A DNA stretch of 24,130 nucleotides from a virus, in IMG/VR virus record IMGVR_UViG_3300006805_000159, positions 1 through 24,130 of that record; one strand, 5' to 3'. Each line of letters starts with the position of its first letter. The first letter of the stretch is position 1. Below the pieces are notes generated by a model, which did not search any database, was not told the origin of the DNA, and was given only the letters and a program-made list of their open reading frames with translations. The translations under genes and the position numbers were made by a program. Below are positions 11,906-23,038 of the stretch, piece by piece.

Positions 11906-12090
11906 TACCTACTGCGCTACCCATAAGAACAGCGTCCCAGAGTAGGGCATTTATTGTACCTTCACTTCGAAAGAAGCGCCACGAAGAGTGCCTTGCATGC
12001 GGGCTAGACGTAACTGCAAGTAGCTGTGTTAGGTAGTCACACGCAACCGCTAACACATAACACCGAGCTAAAGTCGGGTGTATTATTTGA
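11906..12090 (+). ncRNA. Candidate structured RNA or DNA element: array of hairpins
   Basis: This is a non-coding stretch between two plus-strand genes. By my count about 49% of bases 11906-12085 are G or C, more than the surrounding genes appear to have. Perfect helices found by eye: CCTACT/AGTAGG (11908-11913 with 11941-11946), enclosing CGCT/AGCG (11915-11918 with 11931-11934); CTTC-GAAA-GAAG with a GNRA loop (11965-11976); CTTGCA/TGCAAG (11992-11997 with 12015-12020); TGTGTTAG/CTAACACA (12025-12032 with 12050-12057); and ACACC/GGTGT (12060-12064 with 12077-12081). No known RNA family was recognised. One frame stays open for about 50 codons but has no ATG. Confidence 0.45.
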
Positions 12091-12109
12091 AACAAACGAA
12101 AGAAAAAAT

Positions 12110-12703
12110 ATGAGCATAAAAGTAAGTATACCTGCTGACTATGAAAGTCTAAAAATCAAGCAATACGTTGACTATCACGCAGCGAAAAGCGACATTGAAC
12201 GCATTAGCGCAATAAGCAACCTAACGAAAGAACAAGCGGAACAGATTCCCTTTCAACACTTGCCGACGTTAATTGAAGCGTTTGAAGTAACGCTATTAAC
12301 CGAAAGCGCGAAGTTCTTCGAAGTGATAACAATCAAGGACAAAGACTTTGGTTTTATTCCTGACCTTTATTCTATCTCAATGGGTGAATATGCCGATATT
12401 TCAACATGGGCTTCCGACATCAACGCCAACATGATTAAGATAATGGGAACGCTTTACCGCCCCATTGAAAAGCGAATAGGTACAAAGTACACAATCGTAC
12501 CACATAGTAAGGCAAATCGTGAACTTGTTGAAGGCTACGTTGAGCAAATGACACTCGAACAATTCAACGGTGCGATGCTTTTTTTTTCGACTTTGCTCGA
12601 CGAACTAAACAACATTTCGCTAGACTTTTTGGAGAACGAAGTACAGAAGTTGACGAAGGAGATGCAGCAATTGAAGACCGAGAAGGACTCAACCAAGTCT
12701 TAG
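12110..12703 (+). CDS. Tail assembly chaperone (gpG-like)
   Basis: This encodes 197 residues from ATG 12110; an upstream in-frame GTG at 12026 would run through the hairpin array and is rejected. The text MSIKVSIPADYESLKIKQYV, then FEVITIKDKDFGFIPDLYSI, EYADISTWASDINANMI and TLYRPIEKRIG matches a protein that in Bacteroidota phages lies with the tail genes and is regarded as the tail assembly chaperone, which binds the tape measure during tail growth. The C-terminus is a charged coiled coil (ENEVQKLTKEMQQLKTEKDS). A nine-T run at codons 157-159 may let some ribosomes pass into the -1 frame. The leader is A-rich (AAACAAACGAAAGAAAAAAT). Confidence 0.82.
   Translation: MSIKVSIPADYESLKIKQYVDYHAAKSDIERISAISNLTKEQAEQIPFQHLPTLIEAFEVTLLTESAKFFEVITIKDKDFGFIPDLYSISMGEYADISTWASDINANMIKIMGTLYRPIEKRIGTKYTIVPHSKANRELVEGYVEQMTLEQFNGAMLFFSTLLDELNNISLDFLENEVQKLTKEMQQLKTEKDSTKS
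12579..12587 (+). promoter_or_regulatory. Candidate -1 frameshift site (run of nine T)
   Basis: The codons CTT TTT TTT TCG (Leu157, Phe158, Phe159, Ser160) contain nine consecutive T. Any slip of one base backward keeps full pairing. A second, poorer candidate is the five-T run at 12626-12630 (GAC TTT TTG). Confidence 0.5.
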
Positions 12704-12867
12704 GTCGCTACGGTTGGTATCACTTATTCATGGAAGCCTGCGGTCGTGACATAACAAAACTTGACGCAATTACGGAAAAAAGCGCGTGGGAGATATTTAC
12801 ATATATGACTTACTTAATTGATTACAACTATGTCGAACGTTCAAAGCTACAACGCGCTCATCGATAG
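12586..12867 (+). CDS. Frameshift extension of the tail assembly chaperone (gpGT-like)
   Basis: The -1 frame relative to the chaperone is open from the T run to TAG at 12865-12867. It encodes up to 93 residues, and the downstream part reads as real protein: NQVLGRYGWYHLFMEACGRD, then TKLDAITEKSAWEIFTYMTY. The pattern G-W-Y, G-x-D-I-x-K-x-D-x-I-T and a final helix is that of the second chaperone open frame in related phages. No ATG exists before Met at 12730, which would remove the conserved GWY part, so a ribosomal (or polymerase) slip is the likely way to express it. A fused product would be about 252 residues. It overlaps the next gene by 38 bases. Confidence 0.65.
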   Translation, partial: FDFARRTKQHFARLFGERSTEVDEGDAAIEDREGLNQVLGRYGWYHLFMEACGRDITKLDAITEKSAWEIFTYMTYLIDYNYVERSKLQRAHR

Positions 12868-15800
12868 ATTCAAGGCATTCGCCTCTGGACACTTTATATT
12901 AAAGACCTTTTCACACGGTCAAATAGATACGGCTGACCTTGAAAAGTTTACCGAATATCCGTTCATGCACGTCGTGCCGTCGAACGTTACTTACGCGAAA
13001 GGCATGAAGACTTTTAGTTTTCAGATTGTACTTGCGGATCTTCCACGCGACAAAGACGACAAGGTCGAGTTTCAACGTGAGGTGTTGTCCGACCTTCAAC
13101 GAATAGCTGAAGACTTGGTTGCTGAGATAACGAACCACCGTGTTTTGTTTGGTGACTTAATCACAGTACAAAATGTCACACTCGAACCTTTCCTTGAAGA
13201 ATTTCACAACACATTAACTGGTTGGACGATTAGTCTTGACCTGCTCGTTCCCTATTATTGGGACGCGTGTTCTATTCCTGCGGAGTGGAACGATATGTTC
13301 GAAAGTTCAACAGGTGGTACGGGTTCTATCTTGACGTTCATTGATTCAATAGTACGCGATGAGAACGGCAACGTTTCATTAGTCAACGATGAAGCAACAC
13401 CAGCACCGAACTACTACTACGGAACTAACGACGAGGGTGTTCGCGGTTGGTACTTGACAACGGACAACATCGGGTTGACGTGTGAAACAATCGGAACGTG
13501 TCAAACGATTATCGACATTGAAGCGGCGATTGACGCACTCGAAGAAGAAATACTTTTGAAGGCTGACATTACAAGCATAAGCGCGGTTGGTTTCTCGAAT
13601 GATTACAACGACCTTGACAACCTTCCAACCATACCAACGGCAACGAGTGACCTAACTAACGATAGTGGCTTCATAACGATAGGTGATGTTCCTGCTCAGG
13701 TGAATGCTGACTGGAACAGCGTTAGTGGAGTAAGTGAGATTCTTAACAAGCCAACTATCCCTGCTGCACAGATTCAATCCGATTGGACACAGGCAAACAA
13801 CGTAGCGTTAGACTTCATCAAGAACAAACCAACAATTCCTGCGGCTCAAGTCAATTCCGATTGGAACGCTGTTAGCGGAGTGGCGGAGATATTAAACAAG
13901 CCAACTATAACGAGTGGAACGGTTACGAGTGTAGGTGTAACAGCAGGAACAGGAATAAGCGTAAGCGGTGGACCTATTACAAGTAGTGGCAGCATAACTG
14001 TAACTAACTCTGCTCCCGATCAGGTAGTGGCTTTAACGGCAGGAACGGGCATATCTACATCAGGCACCTATCCTAACTTTACTATTACCAACTCAGCACC
14101 TTCATCAGGTGGAACAGTTACAAGCGTAGCACTAACAATGCCTTCCGCATTTAGCGTGGCGAATAGTCCTGTTACAACTTCGGGAACATTAGCAGTTACA
14201 GGGGCAGGAACGGTATCGCAATATGTGAGAGGTGATGGCAGTCTTGCCAACTTCCCTTCGTCAACGGGCGGTGGTGCTTCATTAGCTTTTTACCTGAACG
14301 GATCAGTAGCGCAAGGTACATTTGGCGGTGTAGCTTTTAAGGAAATGGACAGGACTCCTGTTTTGGGAGCAGGAACAGATTTCACAATAAATGCTAACGG
14401 CTACATTCAAAGTTTTATCACAGATGCCAATGTGCCTAATCAATTAGAGATACCAGCAGGCAATTGGAACTTCGAAACATATTTTAGCGCATCGAGTAGC
14501 GGTGGTACACCTTCATTTTATGTGGAGCTATACAAATGGAACGGCACGACCTTATCATTGATAGCATCCAACTCAGCTACTCCCGAAGGCATAACTAACG
14601 GAACGGCAATAGATGCGTATTTCAGCGCGTTAGCAGTTCCACAAACAACGTTATCTGCAACGGATAGACTTGCAATAAGAATCTACGTTACACATTCAGG
14701 AAGGACGATTACGCTTCACACCGAGAACAGTCATCTTTGCGAAGTAATAACTACATTCTCAACGGGGTTAACTGCGTTGAATGGCTTAACGGCACAGGTG
14801 CAGAACTTCGCAACGGGAACAGCAGGGACTGACTTCGGTATTTCGTCTGCGACAAGTACGCACACGTTCAATTTACCAACAGCAAGCGCAGCGAATAGAG
14901 GTGCATTGAGTGCTGCGGATTGGACTACATTTAACGGAAAACAAGCAGCGTTAGTTAGTGGTACAAACATTAAGACAGTTAATTCTACTACATTACTTGG
15001 TAGCGGAGATATAGCGGTTCAAGCAACGCTTGTAAGCGGAACGAATATTAAGACTATCAATAGCACTTCGCTTTTAGGTAGTGGAGATATAACGGTTGGA
15101 ACATTCACGCTACCTTCTCTCACAAGCGGAAGTGTTCTATTCAGCAATGGAACAACGATAGCGCAGGATAACACAGCGTTTAATTGGGACAATACAAACA
15201 AGCGTTTGAATCTTGTTAGTAGTGGAGATAACCTACTTAACCTAACACCACAAGCAAGTGGTAACGCTATTGTATTTAACAACAATAGTTACATTAAATG
15301 GGGAACAATTGGTTATACGAGAGGATTTTCAACAGCTACTACATTTGCTGTGTACAATTCTGCGTTTACTAATATTTTCAACATAGGTACTACTGCTGCT
15401 TGTTATGTAAATACAGGAAGTAATTTCCTCATCGGAACAACAACAGACGCAGGGTACAAGCTCGATGTGAATGGAACGGCAAGATTTACAGCACAAGTTA
15501 CATTTCCCAACTCTTCAAATATAAATGCTTCGGGTAACTTAACTATAGGTTCTTTTTCACTTCATGGTGGATCGGGTTATGCTACTTTTGGAGGCAATGT
15601 AACACTACCAATAACAGGTTCTGCATTTACATCAACAAGTGGAACGCAAATAGGTTTGAATTATACAAGTAGTTTTGCTCCCACAAGCGGAACGGCAATT
15701 TATTCAGCTTTTTCTATTACTACTACTTTAAACCAAACAGGAGGGGCTAATGGAATCACTCGTGGATTGTATGTGAATCCAACGTTAACTGCTGTAGCTG

Positions 15801-15985
15801 ATTATAGAGCAATTGAAGTAGCGAGTGGTATTACAATTTTAGGAGCAGCTACAACGGCTAAGGCATCGTTAAGAATACCAAGCGGAACAGCACCAACCTC
15901 ACCTGTGAACGGTGATATTTGGTTTGACGGAACTAACATAAAAATGCAAATAGGAGGAGTAACAAAAACATTCACTTTATTATAA
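12830..15985 (+). CDS. Tail protein fused to a long tail fibre
   Basis: This encodes 1051 residues from ATG 12830; a TTG four codons upstream is not preferred. Residues 1-158 (YNALIDRFKAFASGHFILKT; LTGWTISLDLLVPYYWDAC) match a tail protein that in related phages is usually a separate gene of about that size. Residues 288-360 hold three repeats with ILNKPTIP. Next come Gly/Ser/Thr-rich strand repeats (TSVGVTAGTGIS). Residues 505-640 look like a jelly-roll domain (IPAGNWNFETYFSASSSGG). A 26-residue repeat lies at about 708-759. A LDVNGTARF segment lies at about 877, and the end is GDIWFDGTNIKMQIGG. This is a receptor-binding fibre; no S74 protease motif is visible at the end. Confidence 0.85.
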   Translation: MSNVQSYNALIDRFKAFASGHFILKTFSHGQIDTADLEKFTEYPFMHVVPSNVTYAKGMKTFSFQIVLADLPRDKDDKVEFQREVLSDLQRIAEDLVAEITNHRVLFGDLITVQNVTLEPFLEEFHNTLTGWTISLDLLVPYYWDACSIPAEWNDMFESSTGGTGSILTFIDSIVRDENGNVSLVNDEATPAPNYYYGTNDEGVRGWYLTTDNIGLTCETIGTCQTIIDIEAAIDALEEEILLKADITSISAVGFSNDYNDLDNLPTIPTATSDLTNDSGFITIGDVPAQVNADWNSVSGVSEILNKPTIPAAQIQSDWTQANNVALDFIKNKPTIPAAQVNSDWNAVSGVAEILNKPTITSGTVTSVGVTAGTGISVSGGPITSSGSITVTNSAPDQVVALTAGTGISTSGTYPNFTITNSAPSSGGTVTSVALTMPSAFSVANSPVTTSGTLAVTGAGTVSQYVRGDGSLANFPSSTGGGASLAFYLNGSVAQGTFGGVAFKEMDRTPVLGAGTDFTINANGYIQSFITDANVPNQLEIPAGNWNFETYFSASSSGGTPSFYVELYKWNGTTLSLIASNSATPEGITNGTAIDAYFSALAVPQTTLSATDRLAIRIYVTHSGRTITLHTENSHLCEVITTFSTGLTALNGLTAQVQNFATGTAGTDFGISSATSTHTFNLPTASAANRGALSAADWTTFNGKQAALVSGTNIKTVNSTTLLGSGDIAVQATLVSGTNIKTINSTSLLGSGDITVGTFTLPSLTSGSVLFSNGTTIAQDNTAFNWDNTNKRLNLVSSGDNLLNLTPQASGNAIVFNNNSYIKWGTIGYTRGFSTATTFAVYNSAFTNIFNIGTTAACYVNTGSNFLIGTTTDAGYKLDVNGTARFTAQVTFPNSSNINASGNLTIGSFSLHGGSGYATFGGNVTLPITGSAFTSTSGTQIGLNYTSSFAPTSGTAIYSAFSITTTLNQTGGANGITRGLYVNPTLTAVADYRAIEVASGITILGAATTAKASLRIPSGTAPTSPVNGDIWFDGTNIKMQIGGVTKTFTLL
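13691..13909 (+). repeat. Triple fibre repeat (DWN..SGV.EILNKPTI)
   Basis: Three in-frame copies of about 24-25 residues: VNADWNSVSGVSEILNKPTI, IQSDWTQANNVALDFIKNKP followed by TI, and VNSDWNAVSGVAEILNKPTI. This repeat type is known from phage fibres and their host homologues. The middle copy is the most diverged and slightly longer. Confidence 0.8.
14951..15106 (+). repeat. Tandem 78-base repeat in the fibre gene
   Basis: Two in-frame copies of 26 codons: LVSGTNIKTVNSTTLLGSGD from 14951 and LVSGTNIKTINSTSLLGSGD from 15029. Over the first 23 codons, 11 differ silently, 3 change the residue and 9 are identical, by my count. Confidence 0.8.
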
Positions 15986-20776: not shown

Positions 20777-20960
20777 AGCAACGGCAATGGTCGCTTGTTT
20801 AGAGTTAATAAAACTAAACATCAAGAGCAATAGCAAAGAAGGACTAATCGCGCAAGGTTCGCGTAAGCTAAAAATATGGAAGCATTATGTATGGAAAGCA
20901 TTTTACATTTCGGCAAATATTTCGTTTTGGATATTTGTATTATATAACCTATTCACATAA
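20742..20960 (+). CDS. Small membrane-segment protein before the tape measure, 72 residues
   Basis: The C-terminal segment VWKAFYISANISFWIFVLYN is hydrophobic and probably spans the membrane; the N-terminal part is polar and Gln-rich. ATG 20742 overlaps the previous gene by 35 bases. ATG 20787 (MVACLELIKLNIKSNSKEGL) avoids the overlap and gives 57 residues. The stop overlaps the tape measure start by one base (TAATG). The function is unknown; possibilities include tail-tip membrane insertion. Confidence 0.66.
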   Translation: MEQTSQQQLQNKATAMVACLELIKLNIKSNSKEGLIAQGSRKLKIWKHYVWKAFYISANISFWIFVLYNLFT

Positions 20961-23038
20961 TGGCAACGAAAGAATTTAACATATCGAGCAACGCGGTAAC
21001 GGTCTTGAACCAAACCGCTGGCGCCGCAGAAAATACAACAAAAGCATTTTCAAGCGCGAAGGCTGAATTGCGCGCGTTACAACAACAGTTGTTGACAATG
21101 GATCAGAGCAGCGACGCCTTTAAAAAAGCGTCCGCTCGTGCTGCCGAATTGAAGGATAATATCGGCGACCTTTCCGCAGAGATTAACGCCAACGCGGGTA
21201 ACGCATTTGAAGGTCTTTCGAATAACGTTGGTTTGTTCGGCACTCGTCTTATGTCGCTCGACTTAAAGGGAGCAGGACAAGCGTTGAAAGGAATGGGTAG
21301 TGCTGTTGGAAAGATTGATTTTAAGACGCTTAAAGATGAAGTTGGTGGGTTGGCGAAGGGATTAGTTGACTTGGGTGTTTCGGTTGTTTCAAATCCATTC
21401 TTTTTAGCAGGTACTTTAATCGTTGGATTGATTGCCTACTGGAGTGAATTGCAGGGCGCGATTGAAACTTATACGTTCACTTATGAAGATGCGATGAATC
21501 GCATGAATAGCAGCAATGCTATGCAAACGGCAACAAAAGACGTAGCTATTCAAACAGCGCAAATTGAATTATTAACACGCACAGTTAACGACCATTCCAA
21601 AAGCGAAGAAGATAGAAAGAAAGCACTTGAAAAAGTCAACACTGCGTTAGAAGCAAATGGAATTGCAGCTATTAACGATATCAACGCAACGGGACAAGTG
21701 ATAGTCGCTAAAGATGCTTTGATTAAAAAGCTACAACAAGAAGCAAAAGTGCGTGGTAAGTTAGCGTATCTTGAAGAATTGTACGCTAAACAAGTGAAGT
21801 TGCAGGCAGGTGTTGGTACAACAACAAAACTTTCCGCTGCAAACAAAATGATTACAGATCAACTTGGAGAGGTAGGTAAATTCATGCAGACGACAAACGA
21901 CTTTCTGACAAGTGGTATGGGTACAACCGTAACCGACTTGGAGAATATCAAAAAGGAAATTGAATTTATTACTGAAAGTGTTTATAACGACCAAGAAGCA
22001 TTAAACGCATTACAGATTACAGGGTTAACAAATAGTGATGCTAACGATGCAAAAGCTAGAAAAGATGCAGCAGCAAAAGCCGAAGAAGAAAGAAAAAGAA
22101 AACGAACTGAAGCGCAAAAAGCACAAGAACAACTTCTTGAAGATAACGCAGTTCGTGCCGCAAAAGAACTAAAAATTGAAAAGGAACTTGCAGATGCGAA
22201 AATAAAACTAGAACAGGAATTAGTTAGAGCGAAATTAAGCGAAAAAGAAAAGGAACTTTACGATTTAGACCAAAAGAAAATAAAAGAAATTCAAACTTGG
22301 GAAGGTTCGGAAGAAGACATCTTGTTAATTGTCGAAAAATATAGACTTGCTCAAATTGATATAAATAAAAAATACGATGATTTAGAACTTCAACAAAAGA
22401 AAGAAGCAGACGAAAAGAAAAAGGCTCAAGATGAAAAAGCAGCGGCTGACGCTAAAGATGCTCAAGACAAACTAAATGAAAAGAACGCAATAGCAGCGGC
22501 AAAAGAACTCACCGAACTAAAAAAAGCAGAAGACGCGAAAGCAGGATTGCGCGTTGACGCAATGAAAACTTCATTGTCAATTATTAGTGATTTAGCAGGA
22601 GCTTTTGCAGGGAAGTCAGAAGCACAACAAAAGAAAGCATTTGAAATTCAAAAAGGAGTAAGCATTGCAACGGCTACAATAGATACATACTTAGCAGCAC
22701 AAGGAGCATATCGTTCGCAAATGGCAATACTTACACCAGACGCGCCCGTTCGCGCAGCAGTAGCCGCAGGAATAGCAATTGCTTCAGGTCTTGCGCGTGT
22801 GGCTATCATAAGCAAACAACAATTTAAAGGTAGCGGTGGTGCGCCAAGTGGCGGCGGTGGTGGCGGAAGCATACCAAACGGAGGTGGTACTGAAGCTCCT
22901 TCACCTGCGAACTTCGCCTTCTTGCAGAACCAACCCAACCAACAACCACCACTTCAGGCGTACGTTGTTGGAACGCAAGTGTCGAGCAACTTAGAAGCGC
23001 AACAATTAATTCAAAACCAATCTCGCTTAGGCGGTTAA
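20960..23038 (+). CDS. Tape measure protein
   Basis: This encodes 692 residues. Tape measure proteins set tail length and pass into the host envelope on DNA entry. Visible parts: a helical N-terminus, a hydrophobic segment at about 140-160 (VSNPFFLAGTLIVGLIAYW), a long charged coiled coil at about 365-540 (EEERKRKRTEAQKAQEQLLE and similar), then the C-terminal helices KKAFEIQKGVSIATATIDTY and AAVAAGIAIASGLARVAIIS, which are typical of tape measures in Bacteroidota phages. It ends in a Gly/Asn/Gln-rich tail. At the usual 1.5 angstrom per residue this suggests a tail of about 100 nm. The chaperone gene lies 8 kb upstream instead of directly before it. Confidence 0.92.
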   Translation: MATKEFNISSNAVTVLNQTAGAAENTTKAFSSAKAELRALQQQLLTMDQSSDAFKKASARAAELKDNIGDLSAEINANAGNAFEGLSNNVGLFGTRLMSLDLKGAGQALKGMGSAVGKIDFKTLKDEVGGLAKGLVDLGVSVVSNPFFLAGTLIVGLIAYWSELQGAIETYTFTYEDAMNRMNSSNAMQTATKDVAIQTAQIELLTRTVNDHSKSEEDRKKALEKVNTALEANGIAAINDINATGQVIVAKDALIKKLQQEAKVRGKLAYLEELYAKQVKLQAGVGTTTKLSAANKMITDQLGEVGKFMQTTNDFLTSGMGTTVTDLENIKKEIEFITESVYNDQEALNALQITGLTNSDANDAKARKDAAAKAEEERKRKRTEAQKAQEQLLEDNAVRAAKELKIEKELADAKIKLEQELVRAKLSEKEKELYDLDQKKIKEIQTWEGSEEDILLIVEKYRLAQIDINKKYDDLELQQKKEADEKKKAQDEKAAADAKDAQDKLNEKNAIAAAKELTELKKAEDAKAGLRVDAMKTSLSIISDLAGAFAGKSEAQQKKAFEIQKGVSIATATIDTYLAAQGAYRSQMAILTPDAPVRAAVAAGIAIASGLARVAIISKQQFKGSGGAPSGGGGGGSIPNGGGTEAPSPANFAFLQNQPNQQPPLQAYVVGTQVSSNLEAQQLIQNQSRLGG

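Follow-up and report, generated by a model that had tools for sequence, protein, structure and literature searches.

Comparison with relatives shows that the -1 reading frame running past the end of a putative tail-chaperone gene in the 24,130-nt stretch of viral DNA analysed here (the window) is coding, that its overlap with that gene is dual-coding from a run of nine T's onward, and that the run itself is under strong selection. The locus is a probable G/GT-type tail-assembly chaperone gene: default expression would give a 197-aa protein, G, while a fraction of expression events would slip on the invariant T9 run to give a 252-aa fusion of G with the -1-frame domain, T. Both the occurrence of slippage and its transcriptional nature are what we infer from these comparisons, and we think it slightly favoured that the fusion is made by RNA-polymerase slippage at the T9 run. 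The broader proposal, that polymerase slippage on an obligatory T9 or T10 yields the chaperone fusion in a large, unannotated set of Bacteroidota phages in place of the lambda-like ribosomal frameshift, with relatives encoding it as a single ORF, seems to us evenly poised.

Two reading frames and the T run that joins them

The features of the locus and its surroundings are as follows.

12110..12703, plus strand: frame-0 ORF G, N-terminal part of the probable tail-assembly chaperone (ATG 12110, stop 12701-12703, 197 aa; phrog_32199; AlphaFold mean pLDDT 83.6)
12579..12587, plus strand: T9 run, putative slippage site, read in frame 0 as CTT TTT TTT TCG, with the heptamer T_TTT_TTT inside it at 12580-12586
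12586..12867, plus strand: -1-frame T domain, 93 codons and a stop, with a conserved GWY motif; C-terminal part of the predicted 252-aa G-T fusion, probably collinear with single-ORF homologues
12588..12700, plus strand: dual-coding overlap of the last G codons (frame 0) with the first T codons (-1), depleted in synonymous variation from the T run onward
12625..12631, plus strand: CTTTTTG, an alternative slip site, rejected (in 4 of 81 close relatives)
12830..15985, plus strand: next gene, likely start ATG 12830, with a 38-nt overlap onto the end of T; its N-terminal domain shows weak similarity to phrog_30964
20960..23038, plus strand: probable tape measure protein, about 8 kb 3' of G/T (weak: phrog_1538, E 0.016; Flavobacterium phage 6H match)

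As an ORF, the -1 frame is open over 12544-12867 in the window, and read directly from the sequence a shift at the T run gives a 252-residue product, with 159 residues from frame 0 and 93 from the -1 frame. Whether the shift comes from a ribosomal -1 slip or from an inserted U, the product is the same, ...LFF-FDF.... No ATG, GTG or TTG occurs in the -1 frame between the T9 run and the GWY motif in the window, and the same holds for 68 of 114 distinct sequences. The initial annotation, which had described a hidden -1 frame, open over the end of the chaperone gene to 12867 and without a usable start, thus identified what proves to be real, conserved coding sequence.

Relatives were collected by IMG/VR protein searches with G and then with T (80 loci each), and on alignment both the T run and the order of the frames are kept. 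The nine T's are identical in all 81 close relatives, and more distant relatives likewise have T9 or T10. When an ORF rule accepting TTT or TTC for both Phe codons was applied to every fetched locus, T9 or T10 was present in 383 of 383 distinct G/T junctions, with no shorter run and with proteins down to ~20% identity, the loci having been fetched mostly via protein similarity and FFF junctions perhaps counting twice. A pattern scan of the whole collection, permitting TTC plus any third base of the preceding codon, yielded at least 115 family members, all with an uninterrupted run (T9 in 103, T10 in 12). The T10 runs look like flanking substitutions rather than indels, since the -1 relation is kept, and two apparent TTTTTTTC variants turned out to be T10 runs out of register. 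At three loci (L505, L521 and L559), probably one lineage, the T run lies in another codon phase, yet it is nine long and the relation is still -1.

Selection on the run is evident in a tree of 110 sequences, where upstream codons average 19.7 synonymous changes and the third positions of the run codons show none, and where Phe codons elsewhere in G alternate between TTT and TTC. Synonymous variation is nearly gone for ~14 codons, starting at the T run, and this loss, together with the contrast of 0 and 19.7 changes, shows that dual coding starts at the run and that the first ~17 residues of the -1 frame, which had been thought to read poorly, are conserved protein; indeed, the stretch just after the run (FFFDFAQRTKQHFARLFG) is nearly invariant in close relatives. 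That supposed weakness had led to a fallback slip site at 12626-12630. The corresponding CTTTTTG (12625-12631) is limited to the window, L003, L025 and L028 among the 81 close sequences, which rules it out, and by comparison the junction is the T9 run at 12579-12587, the site that the initial annotation had put first. Moreover, 3' of the frame-0 stop, mean pairwise differences in the -1 frame are 4.25, 1.62 and 9.4 at codon positions 1, 2 and 3, the third-position bias expected of coding sequence.

Several observations concern the surroundings of the locus. The gene at 12830-15985 (1051 aa) seemingly joins a phrog_30964-like N-terminal domain to long tail-fibre-like repeats; in Nonlabens phage P12024L, where phrog_30964 follows the G/T gene, this domain is a separate small gene (ORF42). 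Directly 5' of G, at 11910-12100, lie ~190 nt with no convincing ORF and no Rfam family or tRNA match. The large terminase is at 1444-2754 on the minus strand, far from the tail genes, and in P12024L the terminase adjoins the G homologue on its 5' side. The tape measure candidate aligned over a short stretch with the tape measure annotated in Flavobacterium phage 6H (E 4e-5 for a single comparison).

Relatives and the putative chaperone role

Several hundred viral contigs retain G and T as a conserved pair, as do the isolated Nonlabens phages P12024S and P12024L, whose homologue shares ~28% identity. The P12024L sequence has the same T9 and the same -1 frame; its annotation lists two separate hypothetical genes (ORF40/ORF41) and marks no recoding. 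The host of P12024 is Persicivirga/Nonlabens, which points to Bacteroidota hosts, and MAG contigs bearing the labels Winogradskyella and Bacteroidetes bacterium also contain relatives of T, in keeping with the earlier assignment to a Bacteroidota phage. Searches of bacterial genomes returned no relatives of G, and relatives of T on three contigs.

In still other phages, the two parts probably form one gene. Gp10 of Flavobacterium phage 6H has relatives that are each encoded by one ORF of 270-301 aa, in Flavobacterium phages 2A and laban6-1, in Cellulophaga phage Ingeline and, reached via the T part, in Bacteroides phage BT-TP2; in these homologues, the ORF is uninterrupted and the junction has no long T run. 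Profile comparison aligned G to the first two thirds of the single-ORF proteins, ending at the slip-site FF (95.5%, E 1.3e-8), and T, weakly (probability 12%, E 0.0024), in order with their C-terminal part, so that these proteins are probably collinear with G+T. Since distant Bacteroidota phages have a probably collinear G+T protein in one ORF, the best reading of T is that it forms the C-terminal part of a G-T fusion.

The gp10 gene of 6H itself (L300 10047-10927, minus strand) stops early, and its continuation, in another frame, carries no annotation; phage 2A (L583 1501-2382), by contrast, has one 293-aa ORF, and phrog_25418 covers both 6H pieces. The break is due either to a difference in the local sequence or to an error in sequencing 6H, and in view of the one ORF in 2A we dropped 6H as another example of a split gene.

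G matches phrog_32199 in all 20 members scanned and T matches phrog_38404 in some members, both of function unknown in PHROGs; these two separate unknowns are now linked as a pair. The initial annotation had seen a resemblance of T to the second chaperone frame of related phages. A search of Pfam, NCBIfam and PHROGs returned no named family for G or T, and the best chaperone-named match in BFVD had an E of 1.2. The G model had no match among solved structures (PDB) with Foldseek at E <= 0.001, and VIA-align gave it Z scores of 3.3 or less, a level that excludes nothing; it does match uncultured Caudovirales proteins and, more weakly, gp10 of 6H. The model of the T domain is poor (pLDDT 60), and its BFVD matches are weak.

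The tail-chaperone role is one that we infer from gene order and G/GT architecture. The second frame is conserved, open past the end of the first and without a usable start; a conserved slippery site lies at the junction; and the locus belongs to a tail module, 5' of the tape measure in Ingeline (portal, adaptor, hypothetical, GT-like, two hypotheticals, tape measure) and of the probable tape measure in the window. In lambda, tail assembly depends critically on the G:GT ratio, a textbook example of ribosomal recoding; by analogy, G would here bind the tape measure, with the T domain bringing in the tail-tube subunits.

Possible routes to the predicted G-T fusion

In the route that we slightly favour, RNA polymerase would stutter on T9 and add one U (U10), bringing T into frame. 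Baranov et al. take a 9T run whose length is kept in homologues to indicate purposeful transcriptional slippage (PMC1088944), and precedents are cited for T runs longer than 8 and for Shigella mxiE (PMC3711429); here the run is uninterrupted, about nine long and conserved in length. Its composition is also telling. At position 8 of the run, a C would leave the frame-0 residue unchanged (TTC, Phe), and likewise the -1 residue where that codon is TTA or TTG (CTA or CTG, Leu), yet it is never present. E. coli ribosomes are comparatively prone to shift on UUY codons (PMC4066793), and a ribosome might therefore be expected to tolerate TTC in the run, although its absence may be explicable by poorer re-pairing of UUC in the A site after a slip.

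Long runs are avoided elsewhere. In 694 kb of other ORFs of related contigs, with chaperone genes left out, no T run of nine or more is left against ~9 expected from synonymous shuffles (the sole match was itself a chaperone gene and was set aside), and A runs of nine or more number 16 against ~55 expected, depleted in all codon phases. This avoidance of long runs could also reflect replication slippage. In the same ORFs, T7 in the slippery phase is mildly depleted (53 against 82 expected, 0.65), no more so than in the other phases (0.41 and 0.62 of expectation). RNA structure after the run gave no signal in 23 diverse sequences (mean z about 0.1, pseudoknots lying outside the test), and no conserved upstream element or stimulator was seen among distant relatives. 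Taken together, the constant avoidance of TTC, a run that stays nine long even where its codon phase differs, the lack of structure or stimulator, the absence of T9 elsewhere and the mild depletion of the in-phase heptamer favour transcriptional slippage. The observation that the run never falls below nine is partly explained without transcription, since run positions 1 and 9 are partly fixed by coding.

The same 252-aa fusion would arise by a programmed ribosomal -1 frameshift on T_TTT_TTT, with P- and A-site tRNA-Phe slipping back one base on a faithful mRNA. The heptamer is perfect and in phase at all junctions, the phase-shifted variants included, the -1 direction and the G/GT layout fit the lambda paradigm, and the tail-chaperone shifts described in a review are ribosomal (PMC5009743); the shift-prone nature of UUY speaks for this route too. 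On the other hand, U_UUU_UUU is reportedly far less shifty than A_AAA_AAG in E. coli (PMC5009743), no ribosomal stimulator, an element that such shifts do not strictly need, is visible upstream or as RNA structure, substitutions within the heptamer are absent from the 383 junctions, TTTTTTC never being used, and other genes show no specific avoidance of in-phase T7. We consider this route a serious possibility, if somewhat short of an even one. What stands of the frameshift gene originally proposed is thus the two-frame architecture joined at T9, while for its ribosomal route the comparative evidence leans to RNA polymerase.

Alternatively, T could be translated as its own protein, by reinitiation or from an internal start, which is how P12024L is annotated (ORF41, ATG 8528 in L002). 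An ATG does lie shortly 5' of GWY in P12024L/S and one near relative, with a GTG there in many others; but the majority of distinct sequences, as counted above, have no start there, conservation and dual coding of the -1 residues extend 5' beyond any such start as far as the T run, and G+T is one protein in distant relatives, all of which makes a separate T very improbable. Homopolymers are error-prone, and a sequencing or assembly indel, or phase variation by replication slippage, might be suspected at such a run, as the initial annotation had itself warned for assembly error. As a general explanation this is contradicted by the data: two isolated phages and hundreds of contigs drawn from many samples share the identical run and -1 relation, and the overlap is dual-coding across many codons. 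We give it practically no credence.

Comparison with known systems

The G/GT architecture is known; the variant lies in the obligatory homopolymer, its breadth and the possibly transcriptional route. If polymerase slippage is indeed the route, evolution would have arrived at the two-form chaperone at two separate levels of gene expression, and the Bacteroidota would gain a natural, strictly conserved slippage signal for study. We found no report of recoding in this G/T family, and no case of transcriptional slippage in a phage tail chaperone, in the open-access literature searched.

As in lambda gpG/gpGT, two overlapping frames lie 5' of the tape measure and a start-less -1 frame extends a short protein into a fusion. 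Unlike lambda, the locus has no detected homology to named chaperone families, several genes separate G/T from the tape measure in the window, the junction is an invariant T9/T10 rather than a mixed slippery heptamer, and the mechanism is possibly transcriptional. With genes using T9/A9 transcriptional slippage (Shigella mxiE, Thermus dnaX, IS elements), it shares a conserved 9-nt homopolymer that links two frames and is avoided elsewhere. ORF40/ORF41 of the Nonlabens phages P12024S/L (Inhavirus) are direct homologues (28% identity, T9, -1 frame) that differ in being annotated as two hypothetical genes. The single-ORF GT-like proteins of Duneviridae (2A, laban6-1, Ingeline) and of BT-TP2 probably have the same order of G then T in a head-tail gene cluster, but in one ORF whose junction lacks a long T run.
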